This document shows positions 38,134 to 64,000 of a DNA stretch of 64,000 bases, in pieces. How positions within the stretch are numbered: the first letter of the stretch is position 1; each line of letters begins with the position of its first letter. This stretch comes from Asterias amurensis (lineage: Eukaryota; Echinodermata; Asteroidea; Forcipulatida; Asteriidae): assembly GCF_032118995.1 (NCBI RefSeq), contig NC_092649.1:20335832-20399831 (forward strand), read 5' to 3'. The notes beneath the pieces are model-generated. The model saw nothing but the letters and a program-made list of their open reading frames with translations, was not told the DNA's origin and did no database searches. The position numbers were made by a program, and so were the translations under genes.

Positions 38134-38811
38134 TTAATGCCAAGCCAGCCGAATATAAACGCCGGCCTGATGAGCCATATTGGCTCGGGACAGTATTTAC
38201 TACATTACGTCAAAACTTACGTTTCTAGTAAATGTTCCGTAATGATCAGTTGCGTTTAAATTTACGTTTTCATAAAAAAACCTCTTAAAACAATTGTCAT
38301 GATATCGAATGATATTGTTGACTTAATTTCCGTCTTTGTTAATTAATGTACTTTCTCAGCTGCTATAGCCGTTTCATATGCTCGTCTCCTACTAAGTAGT
38401 TATTTGTTGTTTATAGGTAAGTAATTCTATAAATATCATTGTGTGCGTCATTTGAAATGGAAACAAATCTATGCAGAATAACATTGTAAATTTATTGGCA
38501 TATGCTGATACAACGTGTATAAAAGACAATAAAAGTTTTGAATGCACTATTATAAGATATTGTGTATGTATAGTAGTGACGGATGTGTTGTGTTGGATCG
38601 AAAAATATTATTCATGCATGAATATGTCTTTCTACTTTATTCCGACTTCCGACTTTTTGCCCTTGAAAAATGTGATAAAATTGCCTGAACAAATTTCGCC
38701 TACACCACTTGAATAATTGGTCAGCCCTTGTACTTGATAACATGTTCCTACTTTATTTCCAAGGGCCAAATTACCACCAGCGTGTGGCTGTGTTGTAATG
38801 AAAAGGGACCT

Positions 38812-40264: not shown

Positions 40265-41014
40265 ATGGCAGAAGCCTCTCAGAGCAGCTTTGCGACCAGG
40301 TCGTCTCGATCGTCATCGTTTTGGAGTCAAGTATCCGGCTCGACAAACCAACTTAATAGAGATAGCAGCAACGTCCATGAGAAGTCATTCGGCAGACGAC
40401 AGCAGCAACCCAAACCAACCAAGTGGACATCGACCATCCAGGCTGCAGCGGCCGCTCTGTCGGGCCGTGGGACTGGTGGGGAGGCGACCTCAGTCCGGCC
40501 AGCTCGACCGGACAGCTCGAACAGCACCAGATCCAGAAAGGATACTTTATACTTTGGCCGAGACATCTCGACCTCCATGTGGTGGCGATTTCGACGGGGC
40601 GGAGAGGACGAGGACACCCGTCGGTTCATCGACAAGAGTGACGAGGCCCCGCCCCGGTACGAGAACTCATTTCGTATGGATCCTCAACCAGGCTGTAAAT
40701 TCCAACCAGAGATGGTTGAGGAAATCATGACTAAAGTCTTGGAAGATGAATTCACTAGAGTGACATATCGACCTGAAGAAGGTCCTGAAATTGTGAAGAG
40801 ACTAGCAGATGATATTAAAACAAGAGTCAAACTTCTCCAGTATGAACGTTACCGACTCGTAGTCTTGATTCAGGTCGGACAGATTGAAGGACTTGAGATG
40901 ATGATTAATAACCGCTGTGTTTGGAATACTGAAACCGACTGTTATGCCACGGCTACATTTCAAAACGGGTACATTTACGCCATCGCAACGACGTACGGAA
41001 TATATTTAGACTAG
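40265..41014 (+). CDS. Tctex1-domain dynein light chain family protein (DYNLT5/TCTEX1D1-like), intronless
   Basis: This is a 249-aa protein. The C-terminal 120 residues form a Tctex1 domain: FQPEMVEEIMTKVLEDEF, a helix with KTRVKLLQYERYRLVVLIQVGQ, NNRCVWNTETDCYATATFQNG and the terminal IYAIATTYGIYLD. The family serves as dynein light chains or as ciliary and signalling adaptors. The N-terminal half is Ser/Arg/Gln-rich and looks disordered, except for a short MWWRFRRGGEDEDTRRF segment and PPRYENSF just before the domain. That makes it longer than vertebrate DYNLT5 (about 180 aa). The ATG at 40265 is the first in frame. The reading frame is unbroken with no intron, unlike the calcium-channel gene. 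AATAAA at about 41153 is a likely poly(A) signal. DYNLT4-like is the alternative assignment. Confidence 0.9.
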   Translation: MAEASQSSFATRSSRSSSFWSQVSGSTNQLNRDSSNVHEKSFGRRQQQPKPTKWTSTIQAAAAALSGRGTGGEATSVRPARPDSSNSTRSRKDTLYFGRDISTSMWWRFRRGGEDEDTRRFIDKSDEAPPRYENSFRMDPQPGCKFQPEMVEEIMTKVLEDEFTRVTYRPEEGPEIVKRLADDIKTRVKLLQYERYRLVVLIQVGQIEGLEMMINNRCVWNTETDCYATATFQNGYIYAIATTYGIYLD

Positions 41015-43858: not shown

Positions 43859-44908
43859 ATGAAGACATTTACAGTACTCTTTGCTGTGCTCTTGGTGTCG
43901 CTGTTTATTACAACTGAGGCTAAACCTTGGGGCAGACCAGGCCGAGGCAACAGACCCGATCGACCAGGTAAGCCCAGTCATATAACTGCATATATTTGGT
44001 AAATGTCCAAGACCGGTATCCTCACTCGAGGTATCCAACATTTCGACAGGTTGTTATTTGATGCATATTTTTTATACATCCTGTGAAAATGTTGGCTCAA
44101 TTGGTCATCGAGTTTTAAGGGAAAAATGAGGGAAGAAAAAAAAGTAAATATACATTCACTAAACAAACCTGTGTGAAAGTCCAATGTCTATAATAAAACT
44201 AACTTTACTTTTATCACTTTTCCTGTCTTATTGCGCAGGTCGTCGTGATGACCGGCCCGATCAACCCAACGGTTGTATCCGCCGATGCCCCCGACCAAAC
44301 CCAAACACTCTAGTCTGTGCGTTCGACGGTGTCCGCAACCGGACATTCCCGTCAGAGTGTTTCGTAGAGAGGTTCGAGTGCAATACCGGCCGAAACATGA
44401 CAATCACCGATGGTCCTTGCCCTGATGTGGCCTTCCAGATGAACGGCATGCTATCAATGGAAACTGAAAGCGAAGAAGATAGTAGTGAGGAAAGCAGAGA
44501 AGACGGTTCCACACCAGGTAATCAGCCATTTTGTTTTTATCAACAGACGCAAATCAAGGCTTGTCGTGGCCGAGCGGTCTAGTTGTATACAAATTTCACT
44601 GTACATTGAAATTGAAAATATCTGCACAAGTTCAGCAATGATGACCGTGTTTTTTTCAAATTTTTCACTTAACAGGTCAATCAACAAGTGTTCCAGTTGA
44701 GCCCTCATTTGCAGCAACTACGTCACGAACTACGCCACCAACAACGGGAACTGCGTCACCAACTACGTCGCAAACAACAACGCCAACTACGGCGACAGCA
44801 ACAGCAACGGCGCCAACAACAACACCAACACAAGCGGCACCAACAACAATGCCAATTGGCTCTGGGGCAACTGCACAAAATGTACCAACACAACCTACAC
44901 CCCCGTAA
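43859..44908 (+). CDS. Secreted single-Kazal protein with acidic segment and Thr-rich tail
   Basis: Three coding exons (43859-43967, 44239-44517, 44676-44908) join in phase 1 to give 206 aa. Residues 1-22 form a signal peptide (MKTFTVLFAVLLVSLFITTEA). An Arg/Pro/Gly-rich linker follows. Exon 2 encodes one Kazal domain with six cysteines spaced C-x3-C-x9-C-x13-C-x6-C-x12-C. Arg sits two residues after the second Cys, the usual P1 position, which suggests trypsin-like targets (inference). An acidic Ser/Glu stretch (ESEEDSSEESRED) follows. Exon 3 is a Thr/Pro/Ala mucin-like tail of about 77 residues ending in TAA. AATAAA occurs 5 nt after the stop (44913), and again at 44946 and 45125-45135. It lies 2 kb from a convergent Ig gene. 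Confidence 0.85.
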
Positions 44909-45139
44909 ACTCAATAAAGGACATTGCTTCCGCAGTTTTCAGCAGAATAAATAGAAATACAAGTTCCCCCAAAAACCAATATGGCATGCAGCACAGCAAA
45001 GTAAATGGTGTATAACCGCAACCGTTACAAATACATCTTATACCTGTTTCCAATGATGTTTGTGTGATAATGCTGATGTTTTAAAGTGATTATGTTCTTA
45101 AAGTGTTTATTTTCCATTCATGTTTTGAAATAAATCAAT

Positions 45140-46089
45140 ATTTTGATAAATTGAGATACAACTTATATTCTGATCTTCGCATTTATTTGTGTTATATTTC
45201 AAATATTATTGCCATATACATGAAGCCGACTTTCATTTGAGTTCCATAAATTTTTTTTCACAAAACTTCATACTTCAAAAATACCATCGTTTATAGTCAA
45301 GATCAAAGAAATTGTGGCCATTCATAACTATGTTGGACCTTTGTGCAACCCAAAATACCAAACCTAAACAGACAAACAATTACGGTCCGATGTTACAACA
45401 TGTGTGTTCACACAATACAGGCTTGTCCAACTTTGTCAAACAAAATTCTCCCGTTTCATCTTTTTAAAAGTAGCGAAGTCAATTCATTGAACATTATTCT
45501 GTGATTTATTTTTCATGTTGCACGCAAAGGTTTGAAGGCAAATGCGCCGTTCCACATTATGAAAAGGTCAGAAGTATCTAACAAAGGCAGAAAATGGTAG
45601 CTTGTGAAAAGCGTAATGAGAGAGCTCTCTGCACGAAACAAAATTGATAAATATCTAGACATTAGTTATTAGGAACGAATCTACACACAGCAAAGTAGAT
45701 AATATACTAGTAATACCGTAAATTTAATAAAATAATTTCAATGATACCTCACTAAACACAACGCCCCAACCCCGTTGATGAGTTTACTATTTAGTATAAT
45801 GGGACCTTTTCGACTATTCTTAGTCTGTTCTTTCAAAACATTTCGAATTTTTTCCTCCAAATTACTTACTGACTTTTGGAATTGGGCCTTTACGGATCCT
45901 CAAAAGGACCACGTAAAATCACAAAATCATGCGATGACTTCGAGTGCTCCAAATAAATGATTTTGGGCACACGAAATAATTCATTTCGCGGTGCACACAC
46001 CCACATAAATTCTTGCCACGTGAACTTGTTTTCATCATTGTGTCCCTTTATGGCTTCATACAAGGAAAAGGAAAAAAGTGCTCCACACT
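45140..46089. other. Intergenic, nothing recognised
   Basis: AT-rich sequence lies between the Kazal gene and the 3' end of the convergent Ig gene. I see no coding similarity and no clear repeat. Confidence 0.5.
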
Positions 46090-46093
46090 TTAA

Positions 46094-46473
46094 AGACACT
46101 GGACACTATTGGTAATTGTCAGAGACTAGCCTTCACAGTTGATGTATCTCAACATATGCATAAAATAACAAACCCGTGAAAATTTGAGCTCAATCGGTCG
46201 TCAAATTTGCGAGATAATAATGAAAGAGGAAAAAACCTTGTGTCACTAAGTTGTGTGCTTTCTGATGATTGATTTCGAGACCTCAAATTCTAAACTTGAG
46301 GTCTCGAAAACAAATTCGTGGAAAATTTCTTCTTTCTCGAAAACTACGTCACTTCAGAGGGAGCTGTTTCTCACAATATGTTTTAAACCATCAACCTCTC
46401 CACATTACTCGTAATCAAGTAAGGTTTTATGATGACAATTAATTTGAGTAATTACCAATAGTGTCCACTGCCT
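46094..46473. mobile_element. TTAA-flanked element, family A, joined to a family F element
   Basis: AGACACTGGACACTATTGG...CCAATAGTGTCCACTGCCT. The left TTAA is at 46090-46093. The right TTAA at 46474-46477 is shared with the next element. Confidence 0.9.
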
Positions 46474-46477
46474 TTAA

Positions 46478-46859
46478 AGAAACACGTTGCCTCGGATCGG
46501 TCGAGTTGGTCTTTGAAAAGCGTTTGTAACCGTTTGTTATAAAATGCATATGGGTAGAAAGATGTTGTAAAAGTAGAATACAATGATCCACACAAACATG
46601 CCTCGAAATTGCGTGGTTTTCCTTTTACCTTGTCGACTAACACGTCGGCCATTTATGGGGGTCAAAATGTTGACTCCCATAAATGGCCGACCATGTTAGT
46701 TCGCACAGTAGAAGGAAAACCACGCAATTTCGAGGCAAACTTGTGTGGATCATTGTATTCTACTTTTAAAACATCTTTCCAACCATATGCATTTTATAAA
46801 AAACGGTTACAAACGCTTTTGTTTTGACCAACTCGTCCGATCCAAGGCAACGTGTTCCT
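46478..46859. mobile_element. TTAA-flanked long palindrome, family F (copy 1)
   Basis: The arms run from AGAAACACGTTGCCTCGGATC to GATCCAAGGCAACGTGTTCC. Matching internal blocks include AATTGCGTGGTTTTCC / GGAAAACCACGCAATT and CATTTATGGG / CCCATAAATG at the centre. It starts 52 bp beyond the stop of the minus-strand Ig gene, so it may sit in that 3' UTR. Confidence 0.9.
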
Positions 46860-46910
46860 TTAATGCAACAAATCTTGAAATGAGTTCAGTTTGTTTAGAC
46901 CCTTTGCCTT

Positions 46911-48836
46911 TTAAACATAACTCTGTACACCTTCGTATTCATCTTCATTCACATCGTATCTCAATGTGTCATTCCAATCATTATGGTTTGATCCATGTTC
47001 GTGACTCTGTGTTTCATTCCCTACGTCACTCATTTCACTTGGGGTGAGTCTACCAAAAGACTGCTCCTCGTTATTCGATACGCTGTCGGTGTCCGACTTG
47101 ATTCCGAAATCGATTTGCGGGTATTGTTTATTTTCGTCATCATTATAAGCATCATTGTTGTAGTCGTAGAGGTTGTTCAACACGTTTTTGTCGTCGATAT
47201 TTTGATATCGACTGTGAATGGGGTCGATACCGTAAGCTGCATTACATCGTGTGTAATGGGAACGAGATCCGTAGTCGACTGTCCCATCGTCGGAGTTAAA
47301 GTATCGATACTTGTTACCCCTTGAACAAGTTGCTTGCCTTATAGGGGAATCCCCTCTTCCTGTGTGTTCTTGTTCTCTGTGAATGCCCATGAGCTCAAGA
47401 GGCTCATGACTTCCTTCAAGAACTGAGCTTCCAGCTTTACGTTCTACGTGTAGAGTTTGTAGAACTGGTGGGTAATTGCCATCATCATGAGCAACCTCAA
47501 CTTGGTGGTGTGAGGGTATCTCGCGAGAGGGCGCCGTGTTATTATGTTTTATTTCGGCTCGTGAGACATCCGGTGAAGATTTCTTAGGCCGTACCTCTCT
47601 GTAGTACCAAGTACAGATCATAACAACCATGATGAGGACAAGCAACGCTGCGAATAACGAACCTATAATGACGGCACTATAGTCCTCTGGTGGTGTTTCT
47701 TCGGTAGTATATGCCGTTGCACCCCTTGTGGTATCAGGGTAAGGGGGTTGGGTCGCTAGATCACCAGCATTGATTGTTTTAATGGTTACCATAGCAACCC
47801 CCTGTATCCCATCATTATCAATCACGACATACATGAGGCTCGCGTCACCGTCCTCTTCTCCTATATCCCGCAACGTGAACTGATTTTCTTCTATTCTGTA
47901 GCGATCTGTCGCATTCTGCAGCTCTTCGGACACTCTCCAGAATGTTCTGTTGATTGCTGACGTCACGGTAGTGGCAAAGGAGGTGAACACCACCGTACTT
48001 CCCACAATAACAAACCCACTCTGGTTCTTGTAGTGTATTGTCACCGTAGGCTCCGAGACGATGTCAAATGAGTCCACAACGCAACGTCTTTCCATTTCAT
48101 CCGTCAATAATGGGCGTGTCATATTGCATGCAAACACCACGCCCTCATCGTCCAATGAAGGGATGAAAGTGACTTCAGAGTACGTAAACTCACCGTCCGA
48201 TGAGGTCTCTGATGTAAGATAATGACCACCTCTTTCCCAGGTCAAGTTAACGGGTGGCTCACCGACCTCCGAGCGGCACAGCATGACAACAGTCTCCCCA
48301 AGGTAAACCCGCAACCTCCCATGCTTAATGCTACTAACCCCACCCTTAACAAAGCTGCTACAGTTCGGATAGACATCCCCGGGAGCATACCTCACTGTGA
48401 ACTCCACGATGTCTGATTCCAAGATGATGTCACTCTCTGCACACCGAGCATCGGTTAAATTCCTCACACAGACCACGAAGGAGAACCACGCTGTGTCCAG
48501 ACGGGTCGGGTTACTCAACCTGAGAGAAAATCTTATATTATCCGGTAACACCACTTGTCGAGTTATCACGTAGTTATCCGCATCAAGACCAAGCGACTCA
48601 AACACCACATCCCGTTTGACCGTGTCATCCGCAATGACAACTCCGCGTCTTCTGATAGCAGCGATCTGAGTACGAACATCCATGTTGCTGACTTGAAAGA
48701 CTAACGGGGCGAACGAGCCCGGTTCCCCCTCATCACCCTCAGAGCTAACCGGTTGAGTCGTAATGCTCTGCCCGTAAATTAGCGATTCCGTCCACAGAAC
48801 AATCATGATGTGCACAAAAATACGTGTAGCCGACAT
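46911..48836 (-). CDS. Intronless Ig-domain single-pass receptor with long tyrosine-rich tail
   Basis: The 641-aa reading frame is uninterrupted. Residues 1-22 are a signal peptide. Domain 1 (about 24-152) is Ig-like but lacks the canonical Cys pair; it keeps C123 and C132. A YAPGDVYPNC linker leads to domain 2 (about 160-268) with canonical C187, W200 and C237 plus C159 and C252. Domain 3 (about 270-355) is Ig-like without cysteines. The transmembrane helix is 387-409 (VIIGSLFAALLVLIMVVMICTW). The 230-residue tail has an ITIM-like SRYQNI (Y544), other YxN motifs (Y512, Y559), and ends QSYV, a class I PDZ-type terminus. Domains 1-2 align with the + strand gene at 51876, so the two are paralogues. 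It is convergent with the Kazal gene and divergent from the 51.9-kb gene. Function is unknown; surface recognition is inferred. Confidence 0.88.
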   Translation of the reverse strand: MSATRIFVHIMIVLWTESLIYGQSITTQPVSSEGDEGEPGSFAPLVFQVSNMDVRTQIAAIRRRGVVIADDTVKRDVVFESLGLDADNYVITRQVVLPDNIRFSLRLSNPTRLDTAWFSFVVCVRNLTDARCAESDIILESDIVEFTVRYAPGDVYPNCSSFVKGGVSSIKHGRLRVYLGETVVMLCRSEVGEPPVNLTWERGGHYLTSETSSDGEFTYSEVTFIPSLDDEGVVFACNMTRPLLTDEMERRCVVDSFDIVSEPTVTIHYKNQSGFVIVGSTVVFTSFATTVTSAINRTFWRVSEELQNATDRYRIEENQFTLRDIGEEDGDASLMYVVIDNDGIQGVAMVTIKTINAGDLATQPPYPDTTRGATAYTTEETPPEDYSAVIIGSLFAALLVLIMVVMICTWYYREVRPKKSSPDVSRAEIKHNNTAPSREIPSHHQVEVAHDDGNYPPVLQTLHVERKAGSSVLEGSHEPLELMGIHREQEHTGRGDSPIRQATCSRGNKYRYFNSDDGTVDYGSRSHYTRCNAAYGIDPIHSRYQNIDDKNVLNNLYDYNNDAYNDDENKQYPQIDFGIKSDTDSVSNNEEQSFGRLTPSEMSDVGNETQSHEHGSNHNDWNDTLRYDVNEDEYEGVQSYV

Positions 48837-49540
48837 TGCGAAAAGTCTGCATTTTACACCGTTACGGAGACCGACTCAATCATGTTATACCTAGAATGAC
48901 AGAGGGGCAATCGTTGCTGGGAGTAACATGAAAACCAAACATTGTGAATTGCCAACACGATCTTTAGGCATCCCTAACCCTTGTGCAAATATCACTGGCA
49001 TTCAATAATTTATTATGATAATCATTTGGCAATAGCTTAAAAAAACATATACAGGTACCGGTGCGGGGAGCAAAGTAGAGCAATTATAACGAACGACAGA
49101 AAGAGTCGTTATTTATTACCAGACACTGATCATAGGAATTGAAAAACTACGCTTCAATGTATAGTTACACCATCAATAATGTATGGTCTTTTCGAAACCA
49201 CTGCTTGGGATCGAGCTTCGGCTTAGCGGCTTTAGAAAACGTGTGCTTTCCTAATGGGGTTTAAAACAAGCAGACAGAGCCCGAGTCGGAGCCAAAAACT
49301 TTGTTTCGAAAACGCCAATGTCTGCATTATTGATGAAAAGCAAATGTGCACAACCACAGTCATGGGAACACATTGTTTTCGTGTCCATTTTATGCAGATT
49401 TTGAAAAACACTGATGCAGCAGTTATCTCACTGCCATTTGTAATATCAATTCACAATAGCTGTGTCAATGATTAAATAATAAGTGCTTGAGTTTAAGATC
49501 TGTAAATTTGTTTAAATATTAAATGTACCCGTTGATTTAA
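48837..49540. other. Intergenic; presumed promoter region of the minus-strand Ig gene
   Basis: I see no clear TATA box or gene here. The segment at 49190-49310 has inverted matches around TTCGAAACCACT and TTTCGAAAACG, possibly an old element. Confidence 0.4.
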
Positions 49541-50066
49541 AGTCACCTGGAAGTGGTATTTTTTCAAAATAAAGCTTTTGCCACTAATATATGTGTTTTG
49601 ATGAGTGGAACGTGAATAGACAGTCAACTAAGGTTTTAAACAATCAGTTCTTATGTTATTTACAAATTTAAGAGTAGACCCCGACCCGAGAGGGCGCTGT
49701 TCGTGACGTCAATCGAGGCAGACTTTGCCTGTAATGCGTAGAGTAAACACAGTTTGTTTTTGTTTTTTCCGGCAATGCCGACCAGGTGTACTGCTGCTGA
49801 ATGCAGAAAAACACTTTTTGAAACGTACCAACTCACGACTTGGACGTACATGTACTTTGCACGTGTGTTTACTATACGCATTGCAGGCAAAGTCTGCCTC
49901 GATTGACGTCACAAAAGGGGTAGGCGGAGTCAGCCCCCAAACAACTTTATATATTTTTTAAACATATAAATCGTGACAAACAATTACTAAAAAAAATTGT
50001 TTTATTGTTCGTAAGCCTATCCTCTTATGTTTGAAAGGGAAAAAAAAAATCTATTTCCAGGTGACT
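49541..50066. mobile_element. TTAA-flanked palindromic element, family B (copy 3)
   Basis: TTAA at 49537-49540 and 50067-50070. It is in the same orientation as the copy at 13801. On the + strand a frame starting near 49776 begins MPTRCTAAECRKT. Confidence 0.88.
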
Positions 50067-50116
50067 TTAAAATCAACGTGTCGACCAAATTTGAGCCTCC
50101 AAACATCGCCCTCCTG

Positions 50117-50460
50117 GCACAGAACACCATTGGTAAATACTCAAAATAATTGTAACCAACAAACTTACTTGGTAGCGAGCAATGGAGAGCTGTTAATTTG
50201 TGAGAAACGGCTCCCTCTGAAGTATTACGTATGTTTTTGAGAAAGGGGTAGTTTCTCATTCAAATAAAAGACTTTAAAGCCTGAAGAAATTTTTAGCCAT
50301 CTGAAAGGGTGTGTTTTCTTTCATTATTCTTTTGCAACTTCGATGACCAATAATAATGAGTCCAAATGTTCACAGATGTGTTACTGTTATTATGCATATG
50401 TTGGGATACACAAAGTAAGAACACTGGTCTTTGACATTATAACCAAATGTGTCCATGCCT
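50117..50460. mobile_element. Diverged family A element
   Basis: ACACCATTGGTAAATACTC at the left, TTTGACATTATAACCAAATGTGTCC at the right, and TTAA at 50461-50464. The left TTAA is lost. Confidence 0.7.
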
Positions 50461-50821
50461 TTAAGGGGGAAACGTACTTTTGGAAGCGCTTTTTGATGCT
50501 TGTCCAAGTAGTTGTCAGAACCAACCCATACAACTTCAAAATCGAAAAAAAGTACATGAATGACCCAATTTTCAGGCACCTGTTTCGTGTTCAAGTGTCC
50601 ATATTTTTATTGGAAACAACTTGTGAATAATGATATAGGTTACAATTCTCACTCTCATAAAACACAAATCCCACGACGTGTTTCCCGCAGGGGTAGAGAT
50701 ATTTGATCGATCAAAGGTCCTGATCAAGTGAACATACTTTACTCGCGGGGGCCCCAGCGTGAGCTAAATTGATTTCAGAGTTTGTCCTAACTGGGCGTAC
50801 TATACCAGGTGTTACCCTTAA

Positions 50822-51421
50822 AGGGACACGTTGCCTTGGATCGGGCTAGTTGGTTTGTTATAAAACGCGTATGGTTAGAAAGATGTTTTAAAAGTAGAAT
50901 ACATAACGATCCACTTAAATACGCCTCGAAATTGCACAGTTTTCCTTTTACGCCGTGGATGAACTCACACGGTACACTATTTCGTCATGGAGATAGAAAT
51001 GATTACGTGGAGTCAAATGTTTGACTCCAGAAAATGGACGACTGTGTGTTAGTTCACAAGGTAAAAGGAAACGGTGCAATTTTGAGGCACGTTTTATGTG
51101 GTGTGGATCATTGTTTGTTTGTCCATGCAAGTCGCCACACACAAGGCCTAAAGGCCACTTCACAAGGTGTGGGCTACGATCAACTATTTTCCAGGGGCCA
51201 TTGCCACTCCTACTCCTGGGGCTGACCCATTTACAGCCCTTATGGATGTAGGCTTGGGTATCATCCAATCAGAAGCCTGGCTGGTAAAGCAGAAATCAAT
51301 ACCTCCCCAACTTTAACATTCTGCTTTTAAAGCACCTTTCTAACCGTTACGCATTTTCATAACAAAATGGTTAAAAACGCTTTCCAGGACCAAGTCGACC
51401 GATCCAAGGCAACGTGTCCCT
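50822..51421. mobile_element. TTAA-flanked palindrome, family F (copy 2) with internal insertion
   Basis: Ends AGGGACACGTTGCCTTGGATC and GATCCAAGGCAACGTGTCCC, TTAA at 50818-50821 and 51422-51425. Compared with the 382-bp copy at 46478, it carries about 190 extra bp at roughly 51117-51310. Confidence 0.88.
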
Positions 51422-51875
51422 TTAAATAACGAGCCTAGCACGTATCATGCCGTTCTGGTAGTCGCCACTGAACCGAGTGTGTTCGTTTTTGTATGTTGTC
51501 ACCGTGACAACCAGTTGTCCAACATATCAGAGCACTGAAATACAAAGTACACAGTTTGTTCTGAAATTGTATTGTAGAGAGATATGGTTTTATCAGTAAT
51601 CTTATGGCACACATTGAAGTGGTTCATTGATCACACTGTCTGGTCCAAACGAACTTTTTAGCAGAAACTGACACCGATATACCGATAGCTGTATTTGTTG
51701 TCCATGGTATTGAATAATCGATTGGATTACGGAAGCAAAGGTTGTTCAGCATGATGGCGTTTATTGTCGTGGACAAGGATTAATAATGTGAACATCACTG
51801 TGAAATCAGCCTGGAGCCTATTGTCAAAGATTGGTGTCTGCTGACTTTTTACAGGACCAGTGGAGAACTTTAAAA

Positions 51876-52895
51876 ATGGCTCAACTTTGTGTTGCTCTGT
51901 GTCTGCTATTGAGCTCAATATCTGTATTTGCTCAGTCCATCGTAAGACAACCAGTTGATGTTACTGTGTATGAGGGGGACGGTCTAGCCACAATAAGTTG
52001 TGAGTTTGTCGCCGTAAACGAACGGGACCAGGTTGTTTCTTTCCGGAGAGGGAACGACATCATCAGTGACGAGCTTGGGCTCCGTTCTGGTGAACTACAA
52101 CAACTGGGTCTGATAGCTGAGAACTACAGCATCAAACGTAACATCAACGTGGGGACATATTCTAGGTCGTATGACCTTTCTATCAAATCGCCAACCAGGA
52201 ATGACACAAGCGATTACAAGTGTGTCCTTTGTAAACGGGATAAAATCACTAGCATGTGTTCTGGTAAAATTGTCCTGTCGTCTCAGGTAGCCAGCCTTAC
52301 TGTACAATATTTACCCGGTGATGCATATCCTATATGCAATGTACCATCCAATATTGAATCCAATGCCAGCTATGTTGATGTACAAGAAGGTAAAGCTGTG
52401 GAGATCGTCTGCTCATCAGAAACCGGCAGTCCACTTGTTGAGCTCGCTTGGACACAGCATGGAGCTGCGGTCAAAGGTCAAGTAGCGGTTGAAGGTCAAG
52501 TATCAACCGGTAAAAATATGCTGACTGAATCGAGAGTGATGTTCGTGCCAAGCATGGAGGATAATGGGACAGTTCTGATTTGCACTTTAACAAGTGCTGC
52601 TTTTGAGGGTGATGCACGAAACTGCAGCACCCTTCCATTCGTTGTTTCCGCTGATGGGAGCAATGGCAAAGAGGGACCTTTAGGTCTCGGGGGACTAACC
52701 AGAACTATCATCATCATTGTCATTCTTGTCCTGGTCATTGTCATTCTAATTGTCACCATTGTCATTGTCTATGTGACGAAGAGGAAGAAGAGAGATCGGG
52801 GATCGACACGAGGTCACAATATTGAGTACCAGCCTGCTGACACCGTAGATAAAGACGATGGTGGTCAGATCAAAATAGAGAGGGATGAAATCTAG
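51876..52895 (+). CDS. Intronless Ig-domain single-pass membrane protein with short tail
   Basis: I chose the ATG at 51876 (AAAAATGG context) because it directly starts a signal peptide (MAQLCVALCLLLSSISVFAQ); an upstream in-frame ATG at 51831 would add 15 polar residues. The protein is 339 aa. Ig domain 1 (21-145) has C42 and C116 plus C119 and C128, and lacks the usual core Trp (VVSFRRG). The linker YLPGDAYPIC is followed by Ig domain 2 (155-257) with C179, W192, C236 and an extra C154/C250 pair. The transmembrane segment is 277-300, almost pure Ile/Val/Leu. The 39-residue tail starts KRKKR and has one tyrosine (IEYQPA) that does not fit ITIM. It is a paralogue of the 46.9-48.8 kb gene and, by its N terminus, of the gene at 63874. 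The ligand is unknown. Confidence 0.88.
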   Translation: MAQLCVALCLLLSSISVFAQSIVRQPVDVTVYEGDGLATISCEFVAVNERDQVVSFRRGNDIISDELGLRSGELQQLGLIAENYSIKRNINVGTYSRSYDLSIKSPTRNDTSDYKCVLCKRDKITSMCSGKIVLSSQVASLTVQYLPGDAYPICNVPSNIESNASYVDVQEGKAVEIVCSSETGSPLVELAWTQHGAAVKGQVAVEGQVSTGKNMLTESRVMFVPSMEDNGTVLICTLTSAAFEGDARNCSTLPFVVSADGSNGKEGPLGLGGLTRTIIIIVILVLVIVILIVTIVIVYVTKRKKRDRGSTRGHNIEYQPADTVDKDDGGQIKIERDEI

Positions 52896-52943
52896 CTGCA
52901 TCAAACAACAATTTACTCTGTATTACAATCAGTGATATACCTA

Positions 52944-53570
52944 GGGCCAATTTCATAGAGCCGTTTAAGCACAAACATAAGCTAAGCACAAGCAAGTTTG
53001 GCCTATCCCAGGGCCCGATCTCATAAAGCTATTTAGCAGAAAATACTACTTGACAAATTTCTTTGCTAAGCAAAAATTGAGTAGGACACCAGTCAATGTT
53101 AACCTAATGTAATTTTGACTGGTAGTCCGTTTCTACCAAGCACTAGTTGTCTAAGCTTAGCAAAACTTTCGTGCTTACAGTCTTTATGAAATCGGGCCCA
53201 GAATAGGGTTCTAACAAAACACAATGTGACTGGCATCCAAACAGCTCTATTGAGCCCGGATGACTATCCTTGTAAAATCTTCTAGTGAATTTGACTGAAA
53301 TCCCGCACCGCACCCGACTCAGACCCCGCATGTATTTTTTTATGTACTCTCCATGCACACAAGCCCTTTGCCCTATTTCATAAAGCTGCTAAGCATAAAA
53401 TTATGCTAAGCAAATTTCTTTGCTAAAGCAAGGAAGGATCAGTGGTGTACCAGTCGCCAGCAATGGTACTTCTATAGTACTCTGGCTGGTAACCTGTTTT
53501 GTTATTATCAATCATTTGTTTTGCCTAGCAAGTTTTTTTTTGTGCTTACAGGCTTTTTGCAATTTGACCT
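52944..53570. mobile_element. Cluster of family E MITEs (three copies)
   Basis: Fragments lie at 52944-53008, 53019-53201 (CAGGGCCCGATCTCATAAAG...TTTATGAAATCGGGCCCAG) and 53369-53570 (GCCCTATTTCATAAAGCTGC...). They are diverged relatives of 7754-7998. Confidence 0.75.
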
Positions 53571-54458
53571 GATGTACTAGGGCCCCCCCCCTCCCCGCCC
53601 TACCGCTAAGAGGAACACCCACCGGTTTTATATGTCAGACTATGTACCATTAATTGTATTATAATCTTACGCATTGGTGTTTATTACGTATGCCTTCCTA
53701 GTGAGACCTACCAATGCCATGTAAAGTTTCTCTTTACTTCGGTAAATCTTACATAACTTTGGTTAACTGCAATACTTACTCTCAAAACATGTATAGATTT
53801 TTTTACACTACAAATCAGTACATATTTTTGGCCGTGTTTTACTTAATTTAGGTAGTTTCTTACACAACTTTTTTTACATAACATCTTTTTACCATTTGTT
53901 TTCTGAGTGTACTTTAAAATGCATGGGTTTTTTTTGTGGGGGAACCCTTTTACGGTACTATATCAAAATACTGTACATACAAATAATTTTTTCTATGAAA
54001 AACTTTAATTTTAAGACCGTTCTGCGGGTAACATGACTCAAACTTTCCATCGAGTGAACTTTTGTTTGTTTACTAGAATCAGTCTAATTTAGCAATTACT
54101 TTAAATGAGTCCACATCTGTGATCTATTTGTTGTAAATTCATTTCATAGAATCTGTGAGTATCAATCTGTGAAGAATCAATGAGATTGTCGAGCTCTTCT
54201 TGAACCAGAGGCTGAAAGTTTATTTTGTTTGTGACAAATTAAAAGTGATTAATGCTATGTTTTAGAAACAAGTTGTTAAAGCCGTTTATACATGATGATT
54301 ATGGAATAGGAGTATCGCGTGCTGTATAAGATGTGTACTCCGTCTTCCTTAGTCGTTGCCCACTCGTCGCAAAGAGCCTCCCACCCCCGCCCTTCCTGTT
54401 GTCTTAAGCGTTCAATACAGTGTGTTGTTGATCTTACACAGATGTAGACTAAACTGCT

Positions 54459-54620
54459 ATTCACACGACAGCAATTTAACTAGGGTCCCTTGCTTTATTT
54501 TAGCACGGTTGTAAAATGTAGCAACGTTTGACAAGATTGTCCTCTCATACGAGGTACATTGTAAAAATTTACCATGCTACAATTTAGCACGGGACCCTTG
54601 CTAAATTGCTCTCGTGTTAT
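54459..54620. mobile_element. Inverted-repeat element, family L
   Basis: CACACGACAGCAATTTAACTAGGGTCCC at the left is inverted at the right as GGGACCCTTGCTAAATTGCTCTCGTG. Confidence 0.72.
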
Positions 54621-54989
54621 TTATAAGGCTGCGATCGTGGTTTTTAGCCGTATTTGCAGTTGCGGCTACGGCTACGACTGTTGCTAAGGGTGTTGCTAAG
54701 GAGTTCACATAACCCATGATGACGAGGCAATCAAGCCGTAGCCGAAGCTGTAGACCTGTGGCTCACGGGATGTACATTATATTATGACGGTAGCCATGTA
54801 TATATGACTCTTCCTCTGTGATGTACACTGTAAGATAATACGAAAGTGTAAGGCTGCCAGGGCTAACTATGATGGCTAAACTTTGTGCATGAAAGTGACA
54901 ATAAATGACTTGAGTTTTTGCAATGTGTTTTTCTTCAAATTAATTTTTATAAGCTGTAAGTAAAGTATAAATCTGCCACCCGAGCCAAT

Positions 54990-55230
54990 GTGGCTCAGCT
55001 GGTCGGTGTTTATATCCAGTTTCATTGGCATTAAACAAATGAGAATATTAGTAGGAAAGGATGCAAGTCCATTGCAGGTTACTCCCCTGCTCTCCCCTTT
55101 GTATCCCTGGGTGGAGAGAAGCAGTCATGGTAAAAGTGACTCGCTCAAGGACGCAAGTGTCACTACTGACCAGGCCGGGAGTCGAACCCAGATTTTATTA
55201 AGTACAGAGCTTGAGTCAGATCGATCCGTA
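54990..55230 (+). mobile_element. SINE fragments with tRNA-like head
   Basis: GGCTCAGCTGGTCGG at the start and CAGGCCGGGAGTCGAACCCAG near the end are tRNA-like. The middle (CCCTGGGTGGAGAGAAGCAGT) is shared with 13500. Confidence 0.55.
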
Positions 55231-55827
55231 TAGTTTGTAAACAGTGGCCTCCCTCCTGTAATCCACCCTATTACAGAGTCAACTCGACTTTGCAACTCGT
55301 CTCGAAAGGTATCATGGTCGAGTTGACCCACTATGGGAGACCAAGCCACTTATACCGTTCCTGTCTTTTCCCCTATTTGTAGACCGTTATCTTTAGTAGC
55401 CATCTTTATTATCTCAACTTAAACCCAATGAAACAGAAGTGAGTTTTGAAGGACAAAATAGTCTGGTTATACTATGTGTAATAGACCTTTCTTTTGCAAC
55501 GTCACGGCACGATTTTTTGCCAAGCACATGAAAAGCCATATTATATACAGAGAGCAAAAACAGATATCTACTGCCTGTCTGTATCAATGTTACACAGATA
55601 TTCAAATAATATAGAGTTGAATGTGTTTGAAGCAAAGCAACCGATCATGGGAGGTATTTCATAAAGTTGAAAGTTTTTTTGCATAAAGTATTTAAATTGT
55701 TCACAGCATGCAATCCGTTAAAAAACACAACTGATTTTGTGAGGTAATATTCAGCCGCACATGCCAACTAGCGCACTTCGTTTTTCTTTCGAGAAAGACT
55801 CTTGTGGTCGAAACGTCAGGCCATTAA

Positions 55828-56184
55828 AGGCAGTGGATACTATTGGTAATTACCCAAAAAATTTATCATATAACCTTACTTGGTAACGAGAATGGGGAGA
55901 GGTTGATAGTATAAAACATTGTGAGAAACAGCTCCCTCTGAAGTGACGTAGTTTTCGAGAAAGAAGTAATTTTCCACGAATTTGATTTCGAGACCTCAGA
56001 TTTATAATTTTGAGGTTTCGAAATCAAGCACCTGAAAGCACACAACTTCGTGTGACAAGGGTGTTTTTTCTATCATTATTATCTCGCAACTTCGACGACC
56101 AATTTGGCTCAAATTTCACAGGTTTGCTATTTTATGCATATGTTGAGATACACCAAGTGAGAAGACTGGTCTTTGTCCAGTGTC
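55828..56184. mobile_element. Family A element with small terminal deletion
   Basis: The left TTAA is at 55824-55827. The body is complete, but about 16 bp are missing in the right terminus (CTTTG joined directly to TCCAGTGTC). Confidence 0.8.
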
Positions 56185-56410
56185 GTGACCTATTTATTTT
56201 TTGCAAAACAATGGAACGTTCCATGCTACTGTTGAGTATAGGTACCATGCAAGAAATTTCGACGTAGCTTATGCGTTGATCCATCCAAAATCACCCCATG
56301 TCTCAGACTTTCTTGCTAAATTCTAAGAAACATTGTGGCTTCGTTTCCTTCACGGTGTTGGCAAAATTTGGCACTGTTCGAGAACGTTTAGACGGGCAGA
56401 AAAAAAATGT

Positions 56411-56430
56411 TATAAATACCCATGACGTCA
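56411..56430 (+). promoter_or_regulatory. TATA box and CRE-type site of the four-Kazal gene
   Basis: TATAAATA at 56411-56418 is followed 5 bp later by the palindrome TGACGTCA (56423-56430), the consensus of CREB/ATF factors. The initiating ATG is at 56606, consistent with a 5' UTR of about 160 nt. Confidence 0.55.
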
Positions 56431-56605
56431 TTGTTGTTTCTGTTTAAAACGGGAGGTCGGCGAATGATGACACCAGAATTTACAAGAGACGCAGTGCTGA
56501 CGTGAACGTAATTTACGACTTCTTCAAAAGCCCAAACACTCTGAACTTTTCTGGAACTTTGTGTATTTAGGCTCAAGGCAAAGGAAGGGTATCCATCAAT
56601 CACCT

Positions 56606-59600
56606 ATGAGGTATGTAGGATTTTGCATTTCAGTGTTTATTTCTGCATGTGTATATTGGTGTTGCAACTTTAAAAGTTCCGCTAATTTGTCGTTGTTAAG
56701 TTATTGAAAAAGGTAAACAGTACCCATAAATGATGTAGGCCTATGATGTAGTTTAATACTATATCAACCTCTCCCCATTACTCGTTACCAATTCAGCCGT
56801 CGATTTCACAAAACTCTTCCTAACTTAGGACTAATCTTATGACTTAGGACGAGTCCCAACCCTGCACTGTAGTTTGCAGACCTTAAGATTAATCCTAACT
56901 TAGGACGAGTTACTCGTCCTAACTCGAGATAAGACGAGTCCTAACTCTTTCTGAAATCGACGGCAGGTTTTATGCTAATAATTATTTTGAGTATTTACCA
57001 ATAGTGTCCAGTGCCTTTAACTGCTGTACATTATTTTGATTCAAAACGGCATGTGTGGGTATTCCATGGTAGCACCAGCAGTATTTCAACGACAGTCCCA
57101 TCTCTTCTTCTTATGCCATGTTTTCAGCTTATTATAGCCAGCGGTGGGTCCTGGATAAGTCTTTATTGCCGTCAGTTGTTCAACTGCTGTAATGAATAAA
57201 TACCTCATTGCAACTTTGAAAAGGTCCGTGATCCCCAAAATCCCACAATCTCGGCAACTTCTTAACACCTGTAAGGAAGTTGTTAACTAGGGAGCCTATA
57301 CCAACATGACAACCCACAGTTTCCCCAAAGCAGTGAGTCATTTTTAACAATATTACAGTCTCTGGTTTGGCATTGGAGGGGAGTTCTGCATGGGGCCGGA
57401 CACTGGGGAAGGAGGGTGAGTGGGCCATGTCTGTCTGGATATTAACAAGATTACACGTTTTTGAGAACATAACCCCCAAACAATAGGCTGCATTATTTAA
57501 ACAGGTGTTCTCTCAAATTGGCTTTGTAAGTAATGACGACTTTTTGGGATGGGGTGTCGGTTGTTAGTCTGCCCGTACACAAGCAACTGCTTCAAGGGTT
57601 TGTCTCCATCTACCTAATTAGTTTTCTATATGCCTAATTGATGTAATATTAACTATTATTTGTATGCATTTATTTATTGTAAATCAGTGAAATGGAAACG
57701 AATAATAAGTTGTGTTTGCACCATTGGGGGCGCTTTAATGTTTGGCGACTGTTAAGACCTGACACTAAAATCTCCAGGGTCAGAATTTACCCGGATTCTT
57801 GGGTGTGACTCTTTTTTTTCTTACCTGGATCAAAATGACCCAGTACTGACGCAGTATCCGAATACAAAATTTTTTTTAAACCATCTTTCGGGTCAGGTTG
57901 ACCCCAAAATGGGTCAGGCCCTTGGACCAGGTCATTTTTGACCGGGCGTTATTAGAGTATTAGTTTAAGTTTGTAGTCATAAAGTCCGTATGTTGTGATT
58001 ATCTTTTCCAGAATTCTTAAAGACTACTGCAGTTCACTGAGGATTGTTATTCCTATAGTGGTTCTTGTATGCTCAGTATGTACATTGCTAGTTTACCTTG
58101 GCATACAGTCCTACAACAACGAGACCAACCAGGAACAAGGTAAAACAAAACAATAACTCTGCTTCGATCCAGAAAAAAACAATAATACATAATTAGTTAC
58201 ATTCAATTTTACAGTTTATATTAAGCAGATTGATATCATCAATAATATTTAAACGTGTCCTTAAGCAAGGCACTAAACCGTAGGTGCTTCTGCTTAACCC
58301 AAGTGTATCAATGGGAGGGCCAAGCCAGTATCGTGTTGGGTTAACCCCCTCAGCATTAAAAGTAAGCAGCTTGAGGTTGTGCTCCACAGGGAGTTCAGAT
58401 AGTTTGACGAACAGTCTTTTTAAAGACTGTTTAAAAGTGTGCTCGACTGAATGGATAAGAGCCTCTTCTATTAGCTACATATGATAAGAGCGCTAGTAAA
58501 GGCGTTTTTCTATAAATGTGGTTTGATTTGGGTTTTGGACAGTAAAATTCATTCGGAGGAAGGGTGACTTTGGAAAATCATATCAAGCTTCTTTTTAAAT
58601 AAAGCATACTCAATATTTTCACGATATTTTTATGAAGTTTGGGAGAAGTGACCAATTGGCAATTTTCCGTTATATTGACTGCTTCAGGGCTGCACACAAC
58701 TTCGCAAACGACAACCCATGATATAATTGAAACAGCGGTTGGTGTAACAACAAAACGCCCGTATCCTGTGTCAACGAACAGTGCGTCTACTACCAAAGCT
58801 CCGGATCTAGAAACATCAGAACCAACCCAACAAGAAACTCTACCACAAACTACAAACCAAAATGAGCCGCCAACAGCTGGCAAATGGACACCATCACCTT
58901 CAGCAAGCAACGCAACCTCGATTGCGTCACCAACAACGCCCTCTGCCGTCACTATGCCCCAACAAACAACTTCAGACCAATCACAGTCCACACACGCGGT
59001 TACCGAAATGATCCGAGGAACAACGGAGGCTGCAGCCTCGGGTTCACCCGTTGATGTATCGGGGTCAACTTGGTCATGTCCAGCGGACGGCCAGTGTGAT
59101 TGGTTGCCTTCTGATCCAGTTTGCGGCTCGGATGGCAAGACTTACTCCAACCTTTGCGTGATGAGAGATTCGGCTTGCAAGGCTGCAGACTTCACGCTCC
59201 AACCAGTGAAGAGGGGAAATTGCACCAAAGGAGTTGGAAATGAAGGTAAGTCTTAATGTGAGAGTTTGGAGCGCTAGATGGCAGCAGACTTGCATGCGCG
59301 CATTACCTAAAACAACAATGGTTTTTACCTAAGTCTGCTGCCACCTAGCGTCCTAAAAGTCAACCATTGCTTGAACCAGGTTTTTTGCCTTTCTCACATT
59401 ATAAGCCTACCATAATAACAGTCGCTTCTTTAAAGCGCTAATATCCGTCATTCAAACACTCTTTAAAATGGGCCTAATTCACCCTATCTTCTTCTATTCA
59501 GAATGTTTCGACTGTGAAGATTTCTTCGACCCGGTGTGCGGGTCAAACAAACGGAGTTATCTCAACGTCTGTCAACTGAAAAGAGAAGTTTGTCGTACCA

Positions 59601-61738
59601 GAAACTTTCAGCTCAAAGTCTCCTTTGAAGGACTTTGCGAGCTACCTGTTATGGGTAAAATAATATTTTTGATAATATTAGTGTAATCAATATAAAATCT
59701 TGCTCAACAAATATAATATCATGCTCAATAGAACAGCTATTTTTTAAGCCAAAGTGTACCTTTTGTTTTTGGAACCATCTGAATATTCAAATTCTTTGAG
59801 GTTGCCTGGAACAGGCCCGAATCGCTTCGAGTGACATGGCCTTGTCACACGAGGCAATTTCTTTACAGGCAACTTGTAAGCAACCAACTGGTGCATGCTA
59901 CAAGAGTATGGCCTACTATGGTAGCACATGAGTAATATTCAAAATTTGTTTTCCCTTACGATCCACAAAAGAAAAATGTGAACATCCAAATTTTATTGTG
60001 ATTGGATTCTCATCATGTAGATTGCCCAGGACTGTCTGCATGTAAACTATCGCATCATATGACATGGCCCTTACAATCACAAAATTACCAAACAAAGTAT
60101 TATTAATATCAAGCAATTGTTTTTTTTCTAGTAAGGTTCGCAGTAACACTGTGTAATGATAATCACTAAATGAGTTGGGGTAGTTCTGTAAAGAACTGTA
60201 GGTTTTAATTCGACGTTTTTGTTTCTTCTTTCAGTTTGTACGAGCCGTCAATGCGATCCTTTTAAGGGTACTCCGATGTGCGGAACAGACGGAGTGACGT
60301 ACCCTTCTCTGTGCTACTTGAGGAAGACTGCGTGTAAGAGACGAGATTACAGTCTGGTAGAGGCATACGATGGCGGATGTGTAGCTGGCAAGTTAACCAG
60401 TAAGTTGAGTCTCTCATAATAGTATCCTTCAATGTTAAAGGCACTGGGCTCTATCGGTAATTACTCAAAATAATTATTAATATAAAACCTTACTTGGTAA
60501 CGAGTAATGGGAGAGGTTGAGAGTGTAAAACATTGTGAGAAACGGCTCCCTCTGAAGTGACGTAGTTTTCGAGAAAAAAAGTAATTTTCCGCGAACTTGA
60601 CTTCGAGACCTCAGATTTAGAATTAAATTGAGGTCTCGGAATCAAGCATCTGAAAACACACAGCTTCGTGCGACAAGGTGTTTTTCTGTCATCATTAGCT
60701 CGCAACTTCAACGACCAACATTGAGCTCAAATTTTCACAGGTTTGTTGTTTTATGCATATGTTGAGATACACCAAGTGAGAAGACTGGTCTTTGATAATT
60801 ATTACCAATAGTGTCCAGTGTCTTTAACACAGGCCCAACATAATGGTCATGGCTCAGTTATAGCTTGAAATTATTATTCAATCAAAATACACAAGTTAAC
60901 TGTTTATTTGTAGCCATGGCATTGGCGGCCAGGTTGGTGTATAGTGGTGTCTTACCTCGCCGTCCACCTCTTGGACCCGGTTCGAATCCCACCGGGGCAC
61001 TATGTGGATTGGGTTATCAGTCCATACTTGGCTGCGCGGTGTTTTTCCTGGAATAATTATCTTGGGTTTTCCTACCATATCTAAATGTCTTCATTGTCTT
61101 CTCTCTTCTCGTTTGGCTCTTATTATAAGAGCGTTTAGAATTATTATATCCATACCCAAATGAAGTAGTTTTTCCAGAGGTATGTGACGAAACCTACGTA
61201 TGTGACAAGGATGGGGCTCATAATTTGTTTCGTGTTATCATTCTATGATCTAGACGTTTGTCAAGAGCACTGCATTGGCATCTGGTCACCAGTTTGCGGT
61301 TCGGATGGACTGACTTACCGTAACTACTGCTTCTTGCAGCGAGCGGCCTGCCGGGTACCAGGGCTTTTTCATGCTAATGACGGACCGTGCAAACTGAAGA
61401 GCAACTTTTGGCCAGGTAAGAAACACAGATAGCCTATAGGTACACTACAAACATCCACGCCCTTCTTAAATACCTTTAAATTATTTATCTAAACCATTTT
61501 GCATTTCATAACAAACGGTTTCAAACGCTTGTCAAAGACCAACTCGACCGATCCGAGGCAACGTGTTCCTTTAAACTCGGTGTGTTTTGAGAAAAAATAT
61601 ATTTATGACACTCATTAAAGCTAAACAATTAGTTCATGTTGTTAGTCATTACTTCCTAAACTTAAAGATAAAAGTTTAACATGTGTTTTTCTTCCTCTCA
61701 ACCTCTTACCTACAGATATCGTGGCATCTATTCCTTAG
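56606..61738 (+). CDS. Type II membrane protein with mucin-like stalk and four Kazal domains
   Basis: Seven coding exons are 56606-56610, 58012-58139, 58688-59245, 59502-59654, 60235-60399, 61254-61415 and 61716-61738 (TAG). All phases fit, giving 397 aa. Exon 1 contributes only ATGAG. Residues 2-44 give a short cytoplasmic head and a membrane anchor (RIVIPIVVLVCSVCTLLVYLGI) with no cleavage-type signal, hence type II. Residues 45-170 are a Thr/Ser/Pro/Gln stalk. Kazal domains start at C175, C232, C283 and C339, three with the PVCGSDG or MCGTDG type motif; domain 2 reads PVCGSNK. Domains 2-4 sit on separate symmetric phase-1 exons. The residues at the expected P1 sites are Trp, Asp, Pro and Gly, so trypsin inhibition is unlikely (inference). 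AATAAA is at 61930-61935. The 5-nt coding exon 1 and 7-codon last exon rest on splice logic only. Confidence 0.82.
56757..57016. mobile_element. Family A fragment interrupted by a family C MITE
   Basis: The sequence from ATATCAACCTCTCCCCATTACTCGTTACCA resumes at GGTTTTATGCTAATAATTATTTTGAG and ends at GTCCAGTGCCT/TTAA (57017-57020). The interruption is 56792-56964. Confidence 0.85.
56792..56964. mobile_element. MITE, family C (copy 2), nested
   Basis: TTCAGCCGTCGATTTCACAA at the left and TCTGAAATCGACGGC at the right are inverted. The interior matches 15380-15547 closely. Confidence 0.88.
59263..59360. mobile_element. Short palindromic MITE, family K (copy 2)
   Basis: GCGCTAGATGGCAGCAGACTT and AAGTCTGCTGCCACCTAGCG. 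It lies about 17 bp after the splice donor at 59246, in the intron between Kazal domains 1 and 2. Confidence 0.85.
60127..60215. mobile_element. Family J fragment
   Basis: GGTTCGCAGTAACACTGTGTAATGATAATCACTAAATGAGTTGGGG is a diverged copy of one arm of the 31273 foldback, just upstream of the exon at 60235. Confidence 0.65.
60439..60823. mobile_element. TTAA-flanked element, family A
   Basis: TTAA at 60435-60438 and 60824-60827 flanks AGGCACTGGGCTCTATCGG...CCAATAGTGTCCAGTGTCT. It lies 39 bp after the exon ending at 60399. Confidence 0.88.
60920..61080 (+). mobile_element. tRNA-like SINE fragment
   Basis: A B-box-like CGGTTCGAATCCCACCG follows GGTGTCTTACC. The 3' part ends in CTTGGGTTTTCCTACC. 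Single copy in the window, so the class is uncertain. Confidence 0.45.
61474..61571. mobile_element. Remnant of a family F element (right arm)
   Basis: TTTGCATTTCATAACAAACGGTTTC and CGACCGATCCGAGGCAACGTGTTCC match the right arm of 46478-46859, ending at TTAA 61572-61575. Confidence 0.75.
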
Positions 61739-63873
61739 GAACTGCCTCGGGCCACCCGGCCCGAAATGCCAAGTTTATTAGCGGACGTTTGCCATCCAGC
61801 AAGGAGTTCTGCAGCAGTTATTCACACTCCAGCTGTAGCCTATATTCAATGATAAAATTTGTTCCATTTTGCGTAGCCAGCTTCTGGAACCGTTCGATTG
61901 TTTAATCCTTTATGTAGATAATTAACCACAATAAATCTAACCTGTGAAATTTCATTTCAAAGGGTGGTTGGTAGAGTGGCGTTTTTGATATTATTTCCTA
62001 GGCATAATAATCTCTTATTGGCGATCTGAAAAACGTTTTATGCAAAAATGTTTTAATTTACTATATCTCTCTGTGAGGAGAGCTGTTTCTCAAGTTTTAA
62101 ACACAACATCTGTAGTGCTTGTGACCATATAGCGCCCTCTTGTGGTGAGGACGTCACTTTCTACACCGTTGACGAGTGAGGGTTTTCATTGTGCTTTTTG
62201 GCACTTGCTTGGTCACTCTCGTAATAAAGAAAATATAAGTGAATTTCTTGTTGCATTGAAATGCTGTTTTTGGGGGTCGGAGAACTAATATCAGAATTCA
62301 AAAAAAAAACACGCATGTTTTTGTTGATCAGATATTTGTATTGAGTGTATGAAACATAAGCCCTATATCTAAAGTTTTTTCTTTAAAGACAGTGGAAACT
62401 ATTGTCAAAGACCAGTCCTCTCACTTGGTGTATCTCGACACATGCCTAAAATAACAAACCTGTGAAAATTTGAGCTCAGTATTGGTCATCAAAGTTGCGA
62501 GATAATAATGAAAGAAAAAAACACCCTTGTCACACGATGTTGTGTGCTTTCAGATGTTTGATTTCGAGACCTCAAATTCTAAATCTGAGGTGTCGAAATC
62601 AAACATGGAAAACATGATGGAAAATTATTACTTGTTTCTCGAAAATTACGTCACTTCAGAGGGAGCCGTTTCTCACAATGTCTTATACAATCAACCTCTC
62701 CCCGTTACTTGTCACCAAGTAAGGTTTTATGCAATTGTTTAATGTCGATATACAAACCACATCACTGTAGTTCTTCTTTCATTTTCGGCAATCTCTAAAT
62801 TAGGACTCCAACTGTTTTTCTTTCTTTCCTTTGTGGTTCAACTACTCTTGCTGTCCCTTTTAATGTTTTTTATTATAATGTGCATTATTTTTTTAACTAC
62901 CCGACAAAATTAAGTGCAATATTATCACCTGTGGATTCACCTTGTCTTTCCAATTAATTTAGGCATAGCGCCCTCTTGTGTTCACAAGAGATATATTATT
63001 CTGAAAACAAGATTTTGTATTCCCTCTTTGGCCAACAATTGCCCGAAAACACAACACGAAAAATATGTCACAAATTGTAAATGTACATTTTTAGTCAATT
63101 CATCAACTCAAATAAATACCACATCGAAAGGAACTTCACACTCCGACTCTTGTTTCAGTATGTATCAAAAAACTATAAAGCTATTGGCAGGCCACTATTT
63201 TCTGTCATTCAAATTATGTACCAAACCCCAAAATTAAAACCAAATAGATTACTTTGTTTTTTTAATAGTGTCTATTTTCTGATCGTTGCCCAAATATGGC
63301 TTAGAAAAACAATGTTTTATGCAAAGCCAGCGGTCCGTATGATTTGCCTGTTGACATTCGGAACGACCAATCAAATTACTGTAAGCTCCATTCCGATTTG
63401 CATAAAGATAACAACGCTGCGTTACGGGAAGGTCCCGGATGTCAGGAAGTGCCCTACGATACATGCAGTCAGTCACTGCACAATGATACGGCATGTACGG
63501 CATGTACGGTATGTACAGAGCTAGCGAGAGGTGTAGGCGACGCGACGACGACTTTAAAAAAAGAAGCATCATCACATTACACACACACACGGTCGACGGA
63601 GGTACATGTACGTGTACGGCACATAGCGACTGAGTTTTGCAGAGCATGCAGAGGATGTCCCTATTACATTAATTTCTTGTCTACCCACCTAAACTGAAGG
63701 AACTGTGACAGTCCAAGTTTTTGCTGCTGCTTGACAAGGTGAGCAGTTTCAGGTTGATTTGAGCGTGATTTTTCTTGTGCTATTGTCACAAAAGTGGGAC
63801 TTATTTGATTGATTCGACAATCCCACCGTCTGGAGTAACAAATTTACCTCACCACAACCACAGAAACGAACCA
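61739..63873. other. 3' flank of Kazal gene and intergenic; no gene recognised
   Basis: AATAAA at 61930 is the likely Kazal poly(A) signal. A truncated family A element is at 62387-62742. The open frames at 62914-63697 resemble nothing I recognise and contain simple repeats (CACACA, TACGGCATG). Confidence 0.55.
62387..62742. mobile_element. Family A element, right end truncated
   Basis: The left TTAA is at 62383-62386, followed by AGACAGTGGAAACTATTGTC. The body is in reverse orientation and similarity stops at AGGTTTTATGCAATTG. Confidence 0.78.
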
Positions 63874-64000
63874 TGGCTCGGTTGTGGTGTATTCTCGTTA
63901 TTTTAGTGCCGTTTTTGGGGTCAACTATGGTAGTGGATGCACAAACATTTACCGTTCAACCAGTAGATACAACCGTAAAGGAAGGTGATGCTTCAACACA
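63874..64000 (+). CDS. Third Ig-family receptor gene, N-terminal fragment (runs off window)
   Basis: ATG in a good context (ACCATGG) begins a signal peptide (MARLWCILVILVPFLGSTMVVDA), then QTFTVQPVDTTVKEGDAS. This aligns with QSIVRQPVDVTVYEGDGLA of the 51.9-kb gene at the same place, right after signal cleavage. Only about 42 codons are visible, so domains, tail type and intron status are unknown. Confidence 0.8.

Follow-up and report, generated by a model that had tools for sequence, protein, structure and literature searches.

IgA, IgB and IgC, the three immunoglobulin (Ig) genes of the window (the whole 64,000-nucleotide stretch of sea star DNA that was analysed, C2:20335832–20399831 in genome coordinates), are probably ancient genes conserved within a large superfamily of single-frame type I receptors in sea stars, with tail swapping elsewhere in the genome, and the two Kazal genes lying among them, K1 and K2, are probably chance neighbours. 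All five genes lie within 20 kb where the initial annotation placed them (Table 1). The Ig and Kazal genes are interleaved, as described there, whereas the strict alternation that it claimed does not hold, since two Ig genes in a row separate K1 from K2 and the third lies after K2; we note that interleaving of genes within one window does not require a functional cluster. The paralogy of the Ig genes is confirmed (31% identity between IgA and IgB across 240 aa, E 1e-32), and both complete Ig genes have no coding introns, each being a single frame, as is IgC after the contig is extended. "Intronless" refers here to the coding part of the Ig genes only, and their 5′ untranslated regions may contain one. 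A retrogene origin of the window genes, considered in view of the missing introns, was not adopted. Other features of the window are a ~390-base repeat that is present many times in either orientation, its copies being roughly 73–91% alike, a pair of histone 3′ stem-loop matches (35.6 bits each) that lie ~50 bases from each other on opposite strands, and a frame encoding a Tctex-1 (dynein light chain) domain (1.2e-22).

Table 1. Positions of genes and other features; coordinates are those of the window unless a contig is named
Feature	Position	Strand	Remarks
K1	43859..44908	+	exons 43859-43967, 44239-44517, 44676-44908
IgA	46911..48836	-	single frame, 641 aa
IgB	51876..52895	+	single frame, 339 aa
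K2, exons 1-4 of seven	56606-56610, 58012-58139, 58688-59245, 59502-59654	+	
K2, exons 5-7 of seven	60235-60399, 61254-61415, 61716-61738	+	
IgC, part in window	63873..64000	+	first 42 codons; remainder past window edge
IgC, extended (genome search)	C2:20399704-20401893		one frame, 730 aa
~390-base repeat copies	2636-3024, 11254-11650, 18080-18460, 24812-25199, 26843-27223, 37754-38137, 46090-46477, 55824-56175, 60434-60827, and others	both	
Histone 3′ stem-loop matches	31308-31450	both	
Tctex-1 frame	40265-41014		
Leucine-rich-repeat-like frames	G000:C2:20445379-20446947, 20451895-20453559		right of window
Reverse-transcriptase-like frame	G000:C13:18893370-18894998		
Family places, C13	18.875-19.038 Mb		11 places
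Family places, C1	25.591-25.637 Mb		6 places
Family places, C6	2.300-2.341 Mb		4 places
Family places, C14	9.503-9.516 Mb		3 of 8 places
Family places, C18			5 places
Family places, window cluster			3 places
Family places, elsewhere			5 places

IgA and IgB start with a hydrophobic stretch (a hydrophobicity rule being the sole criterion for signal peptides), followed by an Ig region, a membrane span and a tail. Each of the three proteins matches an Ig domain model above its curated cut-off, i.e., ig for IgA (2.4e-06), C2-set_2 for IgB (2.9e-08) and Ig_3 for IgC (1.4e-15). The membrane span of IgA comprises residues 388–408, and its tyrosine-containing tail ends in SYV and includes SRYQNI, the one ITIM-like motif of the triplet, there being none in IgB and IgC. 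In addition, the two canonical cysteines of domain 1 are missing from IgA and its relatives, which keep another cysteine pair nearby. IgB has two Ig-like domains and a short tail with the stretch RGHNIEYQPA. In the predicted structure of IgB, domain 1 is good (block pLDDT 70–93) and domain 2 poor; among the 50 rows listed by a fold search with it, the antibody-like matches have TM-scores below 0.5, which says only "Ig", and the predicted fold of IgA (mean pLDDT 31.6) is useless. The best match of IgB in a sequence search of the PDB is CD276 (E 7e-4), and that of IgA is no better than 0.08.

The annotation of these genes as cell-surface Ig receptors, each in one coding frame, is supported, and their family far exceeds the window. 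A search of the genome with IgB (491.5 Mb, 23 contigs, E 1e-3 or better) yields 42 places, every one of them in a frame that stays free of stops for 258 to 1242 codons; four contigs other than that of the window have clusters. The number is a lower bound, because 20 kb of C13 contains four such genes, two of which are absent from the IgB matches. The architecture consists of a signal peptide, a V-like domain 1, a linker of the form [YF]xP...[YF]PxC, a cysteine-bracketed domain 2 and sometimes more Ig domains, followed by one membrane span and a cytoplasmic tail. The YPxC linker with its two prolines and cysteine, both cysteines of domain 2, and one further cysteine after domain 2 are invariant throughout an alignment of 19 members selected from 30, and the extra cysteine pair bracketing domain 2 would form an additional disulfide around it. 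A membrane span is present in all 28 rows examined (4 of 32 were dropped beforehand). Upstream of the start codon, a splice acceptor reaches a score of 0.70 in 9 of 30 genes (17% of shuffles) and of 0.75 in 5 of 30 (6% of shuffles), a signal that is suggestive at most; the C13 copies are, moreover, not independent. Two of these copies, L027 and L028, located ~160 kb apart, are identical at 3475 of 3477 bases, which points either to a very recent duplication event or to duplication in the assembly; some copies may thus be assembly duplicates. The C13 receptor cluster also encloses a reverse-transcriptase-like frame, recognized by eye.

Within this family, the lineage-specificity that had been suggested for the triplet of the window is not supported. 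In a tree of 34 ectodomains, a single clade (96/95) unites IgA, IgB and IgC with four relatives; IgA groups with P0001 and P0003, and IgB with P0004 and P0005, each with support of 100/99, so that each of these two genes has separate relatives in other sea stars. Judged by this tree, the triplet is an old clade and not a fresh local burst. The only named organism among the Ig matches is the sea star Patiria miniata, with an uncharacterised protein. The C-terminal SYV of IgA and IgC recurs in P0001 and P0003 (P0002, from a 1,696-base contig and perhaps partial, has no such end), and the IgB tail stretch RGHNIEYQPA is identical in three of three sequences. P0001, a relative of IgA, and P0005, a relative of IgB, are each listed with a 43,894-base contig from the same source, presumably a single contig; the IgA–IgB neighbourhood would in that case be conserved.

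Elsewhere in the genome, tandem clusters pair closely similar ectodomains with either of two unrelated tails. Eleven related receptors on C1, C13 and C18 fall into two tail classes with no cross-class BLASTP match at E 0.01, i.e., long tails with ITIM-like motifs (L012, L017, L024, L025 and L029) and short tails with several tyrosines (L014, L018, L023, L027 and two more on C13). The ectodomains of L025 and L027 are 87% (domain 1) and 94% (domain 2) identical, those of L012 and L014 are 96% and 52% identical, and in both pairs the tails are unrelated. On the ectodomain tree, tail class requires five changes (three of them being forced by supported branches) compared to an average of 3.9 for shuffled labels, and thus does not track the ectodomain at all; on the tree of domain 1 alone it requires four.

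The DNA of these genes is mosaic. L012 and L014 are 95–100% identical from −300 to +500 and 37–59% thereafter, and the reverse is seen for L014 and L018, which are 56–84% identical up to +400 and 82–99% beyond. In accordance with this pattern, dS for domain 1, domain 2 and tail is 0.10, 0.67 and saturated between L012 and L014, and 0.70, 0.12 and 0.08 between L014 and L018, and no synonymous change is found in the 25-codon start in any of the 15 pairs of six C13 genes. A sharp identity break within a single frame indicates that parts were swapped by recombination or gene conversion, and the jumps in dS within one frame point to the same processes rather than to selection. Among the C13 copies dN/dS ranges from 0.45 to 1.38 for domain 1 and from 0.28 to 1.61 for domain 2, with no firm excess that would indicate selection on domain 1. 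As the whole receptor is encoded in one frame, its front and back halves can be swapped near the linker without disturbing splicing. It is very unlikely that the mosaics are instead assembly artefacts, in which haplotypes or paralogues were misjoined: the near-identity of L027 and L028 would fit such an origin, but the same kind of break site is seen in two clusters on different contigs, both tail classes are present in both clusters, and 16 kb of C13 contain neighbouring genes with different tails.

The long tails contain ITIM-like motifs in pairs such as IVYAEL/VTYASV in L017, IVYADL/VVYATV in L024 and IVYADL/VLYSSV in L029, or singly, TAYAEL in L012. The short tail of L027 has TYYQPV, TSYEVV and YQNI, and the ITIM-like pattern is absent from the tails of L014, L018 and L023. 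Of 26 tails, 10 contain the strict pattern, with 14 occurrences in total where shuffling predicts 5.5 (a total of 14 is reached in 3 of 2000 shuffles), and the pattern with T allowed occurs 23 times against 7.4 expected (0 of 2000 shuffles), figures that overstate the evidence because the tails are mutually related; the other 16 tails have no strict motif. No charged residue is found in the core of any of 28 membrane spans, and there is thus no sign of a vertebrate-type activating partner, for which reason we liken the family to paired receptors in its working and do not class it as one.

In the mechanism that we propose, the ectodomain would meet a ligand on another cell or on a microbe, and Src-type kinases would phosphorylate the tyrosines of the tail. 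The long tails would then recruit SH2 phosphatases, resulting in inhibition, and the short tails would recruit other SH2 proteins, such that one recognition surface could be read out in two ways. In the triplet, this role would fall to the SYV-ended, tyrosine-bearing tails of IgA and IgC and to the short tail of IgB with its NxxY motif. The triplet has a single ITIM-like tail motif, however, and is placed outside the tail-switching clade in the tree, so the mechanism may not extend to it. In a different reading, the family would consist of KirrelL-like adhesion or fusion proteins for skeleton and tissue, not defence, with tails that differ by cell type. In echinoderms, the Ig membrane protein KirrelL is encoded without introns and is required for skeletogenic cells to fuse (PMC8903837); in addition, the triplet is conserved between sea stars, and the SYV ends (IgA, IgC, P0001 and P0003, not P0002) could bind PDZ scaffolds. 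However, the clusters on C1, C13 and C18, in which copies have exchanged halves and bear ITIM-like tails, better fit recognition receptors, and we regard the KirrelL-like reading as unlikely, albeit the least so of the alternatives considered.

K1 and K2 are Kazal-type by domain, and protease inhibition is their putative function. K1 has 207 codons including the stop in three exons and specifies a secreted-type protein that has a single Kazal domain and ends in a Ser/Thr-rich stretch; the domain-model scan gives a Kazal_2 match in its exon frame (3.5e-05). K2 encodes 397 aa in seven exons, and the same scan matches Kazal_2 (2.2e-33) in four stretches, i.e., four Kazal domains. The exon models are predictions set by eye and by splice rules. 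The introns had been described as phase 1, which holds for both introns of K1 and for five of the six of K2 (phases 2, 1, 1, 1, 1 and 1), the first K2 intron being phase 2. The start of K2 (58012–59245) specifies an anchor-like hydrophobic N-terminal stretch and a long Ser/Thr-rich stalk, followed by the Kazal domains. Dipetalogastin-like and agrin-like Kazal arrays likewise have consecutive Kazal domains, and K2 differs from them in its anchor-like stretch and its stalk.

The initial annotation had proposed that the Ig receptors and Kazal inhibitors work jointly as a lineage-specific recognition cluster, a reading for which the presence of five genes within 20 kb speaks and which we nevertheless consider very unlikely. 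With 30 Ig-family proteins, K1 and K2 as queries, tblastn matches nothing but the five genes inside the window and nothing but IgC (E 1e-3) in the right flank to C2:20498999, so the cluster does not continue with more Ig or Kazal genes in these ~99 kb. The Ig triplet, moreover, is not lineage-specific. Two long leucine-rich-repeat-like frames, identified by eye, are located in this flank. Outside the window, no Kazal match lies near the other Ig genes covered, in 226,293 bases of which some overlap the window or one another. Among the matches listed (120 of 271), the relatives of K2 are mostly generic multi-Kazal proteins, and none is on a 43,894-base contig like that of the IgA and IgB relatives; the nearest by identity, P0012, is 73% identical over 39% of the query and comes from a 2,138-base contig. 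We call the co-location unexplained and probably due to chance, and K1 and K2 are probably bystanders. A functional cluster of Ig and Kazal genes was dropped as a candidate for lack of support and was not disproved.

Returning to the superfamily of tail-swapping receptors, we tentatively suggest that sea stars may have evolved a paired-receptor-like innate recognition apart from vertebrates, in which one-exon Ig receptors would let gene conversion recombine binding domains with ITIM or other tyrosine tails, the triplet being a conserved, slow branch. A literature search of titles and abstract starts, covering few subscription journals, returned no ITIM-bearing or paired single-exon Ig receptors of echinoderms. 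If the suggestion is true, the evolution of tail-sharing receptors is open to study in an independent lineage with visible break points, and whether ITIM signalling on Ig receptors is older than vertebrates becomes a testable question.

Sharing of ectodomains among receptors with different tails is best known in vertebrate leukocyte receptors. Like the sea star family, the vertebrate paired receptors (KIR, LILR/PIR, SIRP, CEACAM and Siglec) are tandem Ig-domain genes with similar ectodomains on different tails and with pairs of ITIM-like motifs. Unlike them, the sea star family has a single coding frame, an extra cysteine pair around domain 2, and no charged residue in its membrane spans, and so no sign of a DAP12-type activating partner. 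The sea urchin TLR family is likewise an expanded set of receptor genes with a single coding exon; its members have LRR and TIR instead of Ig domains and are not known to exchange tails. KirrelL, a transmembrane Ig protein without introns in all echinoderms its authors examined (PMC8903837), shares with the sea star family an intronless coding region, a likeness of features. That paper concerns one skeletogenic gene, whereas the sea star family forms clusters with exchanged tails.
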